Part shown: piece by piece, positions 43,577-44,978 of the stretch | How the letters are laid out: the number at the start of each line of letters is the position of its first letter | Numbering within the stretch: the stretch's first letter is position 1 | NCBI RefSeq assembly: GCF_028288185.1 | Contig: NZ_JAQBOF010000029.1 | Location: forward strand, 1-64,000 | Length of the DNA stretch: 64,000 nt | Reading direction: 5' to 3' | Origin: Mucilaginibacter sp. | GTDB taxonomy: Bacteria; Bacteroidota; Bacteroidia; Sphingobacteriales; Sphingobacteriaceae | Position numbers and translations under genes: made by a program | Notes under the pieces: model-generated | The model's input: the letters and a program-made list of their open reading frames with translations, nothing else | Told to the model about the DNA's origin: nothing | Databases searched by the model: none

Positions 43577-43719
43577 ATAGGTGTTTTGTTTGACTATTAA
43601 CCAATTACTATTAAAAACGTTTATTTTAATAGTGCAGTTTTATTTAAAACCGTTTGTGTTAATTAGGGTTATACTTTTAGTTGATATATCGACTTAAAAA
43701 TATTATAAATAAACGCATC

Positions 43720-44001
43720 ATGAAAATTATTAAAGTATTAGTAGTAGCTGTAATTACGGCGTGTACATTTACCATAGCAGAGGCCCAGATCAGGCTTCCA
43801 CCACCACCTCCCCACCCGCCATTACCACGTATTCATTTAGGGACACCGCCTCCACCGCCCGCGCCACGTGTTCATTTAGGAACACCACCTCCACCGCCGG
43901 GAGGAAGGGTTGAACTAAGAGGACCCGAAGGAAGATCAAGGGTAGTAGTTAGGCGTCATTATTATTATCGCCGCGGCATACGTCATTATCGCAGATACTA
44001 A
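43720..44001 (+). CDS. small secreted proline-rich protein with Arg/Tyr-rich tail
   Basis: ATG at 43720 (MKIIKVLVV); signal peptide; two 'P(R)(I/V)HLGTPPPPP' repeats; 'RRHYYYRRGIRHYRRY' C-terminus. Confidence 0.6.
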   Translation: MKIIKVLVVAVITACTFTIAEAQIRLPPPPPHPPLPRIHLGTPPPPPAPRVHLGTPPPPPGGRVELRGPEGRSRVVVRRHYYYRRGIRHYRRY

Positions 44002-44005
44002 AAAT

Positions 44006-44048
44006 GAAAAGAGCCGCTCATCGGGAAGGATGAAGCGGCTTTCTTTTC
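44006..44048. terminator. hairpin terminator
   Basis: gaaaagagccgctcatcgggaaggatgaagcggctttcttttc. Confidence 0.65.
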
Positions 44049-44074: not shown

Positions 44075-44719
44075 TTATGCAGATTTTTTGTGATTAGTGG
44101 TAAGCGCAGCGTTGTAAACTGCTGCGATTATATCATCAGCTATAAATGTGTTTGACAGATCGCGGTTAATATGATCGTAAACGATATGCCTGTCAGTATC
44201 AATTACATAAATAGCCAATAAAGGAATATTAACATCTATCCCCGAGAACCTATTCCAGGTTGGGTCATTTTCTGAATATACCCTAAATTTACTTGCTATC
44301 TCGTTATTTATGTCGTGATAAAAGTTAAGTGACAAACTATGCTCCCAGGTAAGTTTTGCCAATTGGTCATTTCCTGCCTCATTAGTAAGCACTAATAAAT
44401 TACCGCCATTGGCTTTTATTTCGCTTTGTATAGTATTTAATTGTTTTAACTGTTCAACCCCGTACTCGCCCCAGTGTTTAGAATAAAAGGCAATGGTTAA
44501 AGGTTTGCCATATAAATGCTTTAATGATATAGGGCCGTGAGTTGGCGCACCGTTATAAAAGTTTTTCCAGCGTTTATAGTCGGTTACCAGGTTAATATCA
44601 GGTATTAAATTACCGGTTTTAACGGGCTTTAATGCTTTGTATGATTTGTAAGTAATATCATTATCAGGTATAATTTCTGAAAGATCAAAAAATGGGTATT
44701 TGTTTATGGTAGTTAACAT
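44075..44719 (-). CDS. AhpC/TSA-like thioredoxin-fold protein lacking all cysteines
   Basis: 'LYGKPLTIAFYSKHWGEYGVEQLKQLNTIQSEIKANGGNLLVLTNE' aligns by eye with the peroxiredoxin core; no Cys anywhere in the 214 aa. Confidence 0.7.
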   Translation of the reverse strand: MLTTINKYPFFDLSEIIPDNDITYKSYKALKPVKTGNLIPDINLVTDYKRWKNFYNGAPTHGPISLKHLYGKPLTIAFYSKHWGEYGVEQLKQLNTIQSEIKANGGNLLVLTNEAGNDQLAKLTWEHSLSLNFYHDINNEIASKFRVYSENDPTWNRFSGIDVNIPLLAIYVIDTDRHIVYDHINRDLSNTFIADDIIAAVYNAALTTNHKKSA

Positions 44720-44778
44720 GTTTTAATAAATTAAAAATTGATAATAGGTGTGGATAGATGCAGGGCGGTTGTATGCAA

Positions 44779-44799
44779 TTAGCAACAACAATGGCACAT
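44779..44799 (-). CDS. putative leader micro-ORF encoding MCHCCC*
   Basis: Reverse strand ATG TGC CAT TGT TGT TGC TAA, 60 nt upstream of the downstream ATG, with a hairpin (GGTAC-GCGAAT-GTGCC) over its start. Confidence 0.5.
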   Translation of the reverse strand: MCHCCC

Positions 44800-44886
44800 T
44801 CGCGTACCTAAGTCAAAACGTCCTGAAAGGACCTGGATAAAGATGATGGTTTTACTGTGTAGCATGTTTGTATTTCAATTACAATT

Positions 44887-44894
44887 CAAATATA
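44887..44894 (-). promoter_or_regulatory. Bacteroidota -7 promoter box
   Basis: Minus-strand TATATTTG (TAnnTTTG) upstream of the micro-ORF. Confidence 0.5.
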
Positions 44895-44978
44895 CTACTT
44901 AATCTATATACTTTATATACTTTTATAAAATATATAGTATATTGCTGATAATCAAAGCAAAAAAAATCATAATAAATA

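Follow-up and report, generated by a model that had tools for sequence, protein, structure and literature searches.

In the E. coli tna operon, the tnaC leader stalls its ribosome on free tryptophan through the nascent peptide, and the ribosome held near the leader stop codon blocks Rho from a G-poor spacer. Leaders built on cysteine codons are already known from Actinobacteria and Rhodobacterales. Actinobacterial cys-operon leader peptides, of the kind that the original prediction for the present locus had named as a precedent, carry a run of Cys codons, and Rho has already been suggested to act on them (PMC1262725); mycobacteria have leaderless short ORFs of the polycysteine type (Canestrari et al. 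2020, Mol Microbiol 114:93, cited through PMC13236596); and uORFC-8-2, upstream of cysS in Rhodobacterales, has an intrinsic terminator along with two stems, and its Cys codons stand at positions 14-15 (PMC8632094). Here we describe a cysteine-codon leader in the genome of a Mucilaginibacter soil bacterium (Bacteroidota; Sphingobacteriaceae), at which ribosome stalling probably switches on sulfur-sparing proteins when sulfur runs out, a reading that rests on sequence comparison. A search of the open-access literature turned up neither a cysteine leader in Bacteroidota nor one in tandem with a SAM riboswitch, and nothing that connects such leaders to sulfur-free proteins; transcriptome papers on flavobacteria and Bacteroides speak of leader peptides only generally, the passages found naming no cysteine leader. 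The occurrence in Bacteroidota and the link to sulfur-free proteins appear new within the open-access literature searched.

We analysed a stretch of 64,000 nucleotides, referred to as the window (contig NZ_JAQBOF010000029.1, positions 1 to 64,000), from a genome that has Mucilaginibacter MAGs and M. corticis as its closest named relatives. The following features lie along the minus strand:

44895-44910, minus: candidate operator CTACTTAATCTATATA (written in plus-strand letters), overlapping the promoter, conserved in the promoters of the peroxiredoxin-like (Prx) family and modestly supported
44887-44894, minus: TATATTTG, a Bacteroidota-type -7 promoter box, read in the sequence and backed by box-to-ATG spacing across the family
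44779-44865, minus: leader ORF of 28 codons, MLHSKTIIFIQVLSGRFDLGTRMCHCCC then stop, backed by orthologue conservation and pN/pS
44779-44799, minus: sensor tail M-C-H-C-C-C-stop, the micro-ORF of the original prediction, backed by the positional profile of Cys
44720-44778, minus: spacer between the leader stop and the gene (C 27%, G 5%), a candidate Rho-loading (rut-like) or unstructured initiation region
44075-44719, minus: gene for a sulfur-free peroxiredoxin-fold protein of 214 aa (0 Cys, 0 internal Met; Gly87 at the peroxidatic Cys position)
44012-44040, minus: candidate end-of-transcript terminator, a G+C-rich hairpin AGCCGCTTCATCCTTCCCGATGAGCGGCT then CTTTTC, read from the sequence

The perfect TAnnTTTG box originally placed at 44887-44894 is present as TATATTTG (44894-44887 in the direction of transcription); the leader ATG (44865) comes 29 nt after it, a distance that predicts a 5′ UTR of about 13-20 nt, and a spacer of 59 nt follows the leader stop before the ATG of the 214-aa gene (44719). 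A free-standing micro-ORF, MCHCCC then stop, had been proposed here. Its codons, ATG TGC CAT TGT TGT TGC TAA, stand at 44799-44779 as described, but the 44799 ATG probably encodes a Met within the 28-codon ORF and not a separate start, so that the six residues read as the C terminus of MLHSKTIIFIQVLSGRFDLGTRMCHCCC; the 28-codon length is kept in the nearest orthologues. A molybdopterin oxidoreductase/FdhD cluster lies upstream of the leader and the 214-aa gene, and the next ORF downstream (43681-44001, plus strand) is convergent, so the gene appears monocistronic. This convergent ORF encodes a repetitive PPPPxPxLPRIHLGTPPPPP sequence with an Arg-rich tail and varies among relatives. The leaders described here share with the actinobacterial and mycobacterial ones a Cys run near the stop codon, a place upstream of sulfur genes and the lack of a conserved intrinsic terminator; they differ from them in phylum, in their Bacteroidota promoter and in a predicted short 5′ UTR in place of a leaderless start. 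As in uORFC-8-2, the putative sensor of cysteinyl-tRNA in the window leader is a set of Cys codons in an ORF ahead of the gene, whereas the two stems, the Cys positions 14-15 and the intrinsic terminator of that system are not seen here, and the downstream gene is not cysS.

Homologues of the 214-aa protein are present in 104 of 150 genomes of the genus, and 88 full-length examples were taken with their upstream DNA. Taking as a leader any ORF no longer than 50 codons whose last 8 codons include at least 3 Cys, we find one in 78% of 90 homologous upstream regions, a count over orthologues that are not phylogenetically independent, against 0.7% of first-order Markov shuffles of these regions (maximum 2.2%) and 0% on the reverse strand. 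Only 3 of 125 upstream regions of other genes match, and these are the window leader and two more Cys leaders of the same genome. One instance by itself could be a chance pattern in an AT-rich leader, an explanation whose probability is brought close to nil by these frequencies and by the recurrence of the run at four unrelated gene families. The Cys codons are kept in orthologous upstream regions throughout the genus and also in two further genera of the family, whose homologues have a promoter box and a Cys-run leader (for example MTHSLKNTSKKSAAGQPFSLMMYMCNCCC and MNKAKTYSFPSTHQTMCCSRMCSNFCCC). Cys clusters in the final 4-6 codons (62 leaders), a run near the stop as in the mycobacterial polycysteine short ORFs, and box-to-ATG spacing in the Prx family has a mode of 29 nt and falls mostly at 26-31. 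The locus has the general anatomy of an amino-acid-responsive leader-peptide attenuator, a short ORF between promoter and gene that is rich in codons for one amino acid, and this ORF bears the mark of coding selection: among the nearest orthologues, including MVHSKIIIFLYILSGRSDLGIRMCYCCC and MIRIKTIPHIEILSGRQSKGFRMCYCCS, the latter from M. corticis MAH-19, pN/pS is 0.41 in frame and 0.28 over codons 13-28, compared with 0.84 and 1.17 for the same DNA in shifted frames. On this comparison, the leader ORF is under in-frame purifying selection.

Selection on codons 13-28 could also be expected of a conserved small protein with a function of its own, to which any downstream effect would be incidental; leader bodies are, however, unrelated between clades and genes, with only the Cys tail, promoter spacing and position in common, and we consider this explanation very improbable. 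Met is enriched at positions 5-8 before the stop in Prx-family leaders, beside the Cys run, a pattern that would suit a readout of both sulfur amino acids. Leaders occur in tandem in a large clade, the first ending MMCMCCCC and the second IYGLCRC or VYGLYRCC before the stop. This second leader, with the ending (I/V)YGL(C/Y)RC(C), sits between the first Cys leader and the gene at a little over 40 loci and is conserved beyond its Cys codons, and on that pattern it may work as a nascent peptide too. Some 16% of the 90 upstream regions lack a Cys leader, and in several of these the box lies within about 27-42 nt of the gene; the homologues behind them form a natural leaderless control group.

The gene behind the leader had been described as a 214-aa AhpC/TSA-like ORF (44719-44075) without cysteine, its usual peroxidatic Cys missing, and our searches bear out both statements: Pfam PF00578 matches at E 1.2e-9, the protein has zero Cys, and a profile alignment to Aeropyrum thiol peroxidase puts Gly87 opposite the peroxidatic Cys. 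The predicted structure (pLDDT 81) matches Sulfolobus Bcp4 and yeast TSA2 (E about 1e-9). The protein resembles peroxiredoxins (Bcp/PrxQ, 2-Cys Prx) in its predicted fold and in its profile, but those enzymes use a peroxidatic Cys, in a PxxxT/SxxC motif, where the window protein has Gly87; without any Cys, it cannot be a thiol peroxidase. Judged by its predicted model and profile, the product is a peroxiredoxin-fold protein, or pseudo-peroxiredoxin. The absence of internal Met had escaped the original prediction. Cys and Met are avoided in proteins that a cell needs when sulfur is scarce, such as the phycobiliproteins of Calothrix and low-sulfur assimilatory enzymes of bacteria and yeast, and the window protein is of this type: with no Cys and no Met past the start, its synthesis calls for no sulfur apart from the initiator Met. 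The 88 orthologues (18,400 residues) together contain 13 Cys, against about 168 expected from baseline frequencies of 78 genes, and 33 internal Met, against about 334; 78 of the orthologues lack Cys, and 59 have no sulfur residue at all except the initiator Met. Among the 48 genes in the window this is the sole sulfur-free one, an outcome with a chance of about 0.001 at the window's mean content. Unlike known sulfur-sparing proteins, it combines its depletion with a cysteine-codon leader, and most orthologues retain no sulfur residue but the start Met. Met content is about four times higher in leaderless homologues (0.49%, n=14) than in those with a leader (0.13%, n=68), and as the leaderless proteins are still sulfur-poor, protein composition does not strictly depend on the leader.

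Leaders of the same type stand before other genes. We located the genome's Cys-run leaders with the pattern TGYTGYTGYTRR and a script filter, a search that would miss leaders with fewer than 3 terminal Cys. In this genome, a promoter box and an ORF ending CCC or CCCC before the stop precede a SusC/SusD/cyanophycinase-like operon and a TonB receptor. The operon extends into a SoxC sulfite dehydrogenase (TIGR04555, above the curated cut-off) and possibly serves uptake and oxidation of an organosulfur compound; its leader is kept in 18 of 19 relatives, the exception having almost no upstream DNA on its contig, and its cyanophycinase-like protein has 0 Cys and 0 Met in 315 aa. The gene order at L162:4702-15764 (plus strand) is SusC, SusD, cyanophycinase-like protein, two membrane proteins, cytochrome c and SoxC. 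The TonB receptor, whose leader is kept in 24 of 27 relatives, lies a few kilobases from a PAPS-reductase/CysN/sirohaem/sulfite-reductase cluster, and both Cys-leader TonB receptors contain about 0 Cys and 0.5-0.7% Met. A search of the present Mucilaginibacter assembly (94% complete) did not find metY, and its leader was therefore examined in relatives. In a complete relative the gene is preceded by the Cys-run leader MKSFNTITKSNIFNTQNGNMQHISPSIGNICMCCCC; a leader is present in 30 of 30 relatives of the genus, and all 28 further metY loci, other genera included, have a Cys/Met-rich leader tail. A SAM-I riboswitch lies directly upstream of the metY leader in all 19 loci tested. MetY itself has 1 Cys in 30 proteins and 0.24% Met, compared with 3 Cys and 14 Met in the 379 aa of a PLP-enzyme paralogue of the same genome. 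The metY spacers often contain a recurring ACACGT...ACGTGT hairpin. A complete relative (L165) also has a leader, MQPEHLLKNGFAKHQLPATAFTCCCTSCCCC, with a promoter box before two small ORFs and a sterol-desaturase-like gene, where a link to sulfur might conceivably run through sulfonolipids. Finding the same leader type before sulfur-linked genes ties these leaders to sulfur metabolism independently of the argument first made from the window, and in metY, the SoxC operon and a receptor near cys genes the attenuator trait of genes acting in the metabolism of the encoded amino acid is present. Relative to the mycobacterial and actinobacterial leaders, those of Mucilaginibacter differ in what they would control (uptake receptors, metY and a sulfur-free pseudo-peroxiredoxin), in often standing two in tandem and, at metY, in following a SAM-I riboswitch.

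A further element may be shared between some of these genes. The motif CTACYWANNYYATAKA, conserved in Prx promoters and overlapping the promoter, has 9 matches in this genome against 3 for a reversed control pattern, with sites at the window promoter, both Cys-leader TonB receptors, the sulfite-reductase/cys operon and a TauE-family gene (named from sequence reading); as four of these sites served to define the motif, the TauE site alone is independent. Beside the sulfite-reductase operon bearing the motif lies a gene for a CymR-like Rrf2 regulator (L261:3244-3678), and we take CTACYWANNYYATAKA as a lead to a putative second regulatory layer.

How the leader might act on the gene depends in part on RNA structure. 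Two hairpins drawn in the original prediction, GTCCT/AGGAC and GGTAC/GTGCC, can be formed by the letters at 44832-44820 and 44808-44793, but are absent from the six nearest orthologous leaders. A scan calls the two terminator-like; we rejected them as terminators, as they lie inside the ORF and are not conserved. The consensus fold of the aligned leaders (RNAalifold) reaches -1.36 kcal/mol and contains no conserved hairpin or terminator, with double changes in 1 of 19 pairs. RNAalifold also suggested a long-range duplex between the 5′ end of the transcript and the start of the gene, a candidate rejected on the same energy and the same 1 of 19 double-change pairs. An Rfam search of the window gave no match to known leader families, and hence none that would explain the region as a structure, and the spacer folds no better than shuffles. 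Together these results argue against a trp-type attenuator, whose mutually exclusive terminator and antiterminator hairpins were not found. What is conserved in the spacer is its composition: C exceeds G in all 76 homologous spacers, which average 21% C and 8% G, compared with 22 of 37 control 5′ regions (C 17%, G 14%), a difference with a Fisher p of 5e-9 uncorrected for relatedness. The genome has a rho gene, and by composition the C-rich, G-poor region after the leader stop resembles that of tnaC, a circumstantial fit to Rho-dependent attenuation. As at tnaC, a ribosome stalled near the leader stop would block Rho from the spacer, although stalling here would come from a lack of cysteinyl-tRNA.

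Translational attenuation, already proposed for mycobacterial polycysteine leaders, would instead have the Cys-codon tract with its UGU/UGC repeats pair with the A/C-rich region before the gene start, which a stalled ribosome would free. The window sequence allows such an arrangement, with GTTGTTGC opposite GCATACAAC on the other side of the stop codon, and the duplex between Cys run and spacer is stronger than in shuffles in one TonB-receptor set (mean z -1.2) and slightly so in the Prx set (z -0.6). No effect is seen, however, for the first of two leaders, for metY or for the SusC operon set (z about 0), leaving a notable duplex in 1 of 5 leader sets, and the nearest leaders show no conserved or covarying pairing of the Cys tract; we hold this variant only tentatively. 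Copper-sensing nascent peptides with a Cys motif exist in Bordetella. On that precedent, and with a peroxiredoxin fold downstream that could suggest redox control, the Cys-rich peptide itself might sense a metal ion, an oxidant or an electrophile through thiols in or near the exit tunnel, in place of tRNA supply. Yet the Cys residues come immediately ahead of the stop, where they would lie far inside the ribosome, their spacing varies (MCYCCC, MMCMCCCC, ACCCC, CCCCC), the 214-aa protein has lost its reactive Cys, and the co-regulated genes are metY with a SAM riboswitch, SoxC and receptors next to cys genes, all of which make such a sensor unlikely.

The best explanation, to which we assign a probability of about 80% from sequence evidence, is a ribosome-mediated sensor of cysteine supply that derepresses sulfur-sparing genes. 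This retains the core of the original prediction, a cysteine-sensing leader before a protein that stays translatable in cysteine starvation, which fits every test applied, the conserved Cys codons and the sulfur-gene context included. RNA polymerase would start a few bases past TATATTTG, and ribosomes would then translate the 28-codon leader. With cysteinyl-tRNA plentiful, the terminal Cys codons would be read fast, the ribosome would stop and leave, and the downstream gene would stay low, probably through Rho (or poor initiation) acting on the exposed G-poor, C-rich spacer. With cysteine short, the ribosome would stall at the Cys codons beside the stop and cover or reshape the spacer, and the gene would be transcribed and translated. 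We infer the response to cysteine and this direction of regulation, as well as the Rho step and the protein's role, from the comparative evidence.

On the same reading, the pseudo-peroxiredoxin, metY, the sulfur-linked TonB and SusCD uptake genes and SoxC would form one sulfur-starvation group. We favour, with less confidence than the sensor itself but as a better than even proposition, a Sphingobacteriaceae sulfur-starvation programme in which stalling at terminal Cys (and adjacent Met) codons induces proteins that have shed Cys and Met, a dead, sulfur-free peroxiredoxin fold among them, and in which the metY leader behind SAM-I gives a joint readout of SAM and cysteine. The finding would extend cysteine-codon leaders to a phylum for which our search found no reported case, and raises the question of what role a peroxiredoxin fold has without any cysteine. 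It would link a sensor to the elemental make-up of its targets, as the genes behind the leader have largely lost their sulfur residues, and elemental sparing would become directly testable in bacteria by a codon swap. The leader may serve as a sequence signature for sulfur-stress genes across Bacteroidota, including sulfur-linked TonB receptors.
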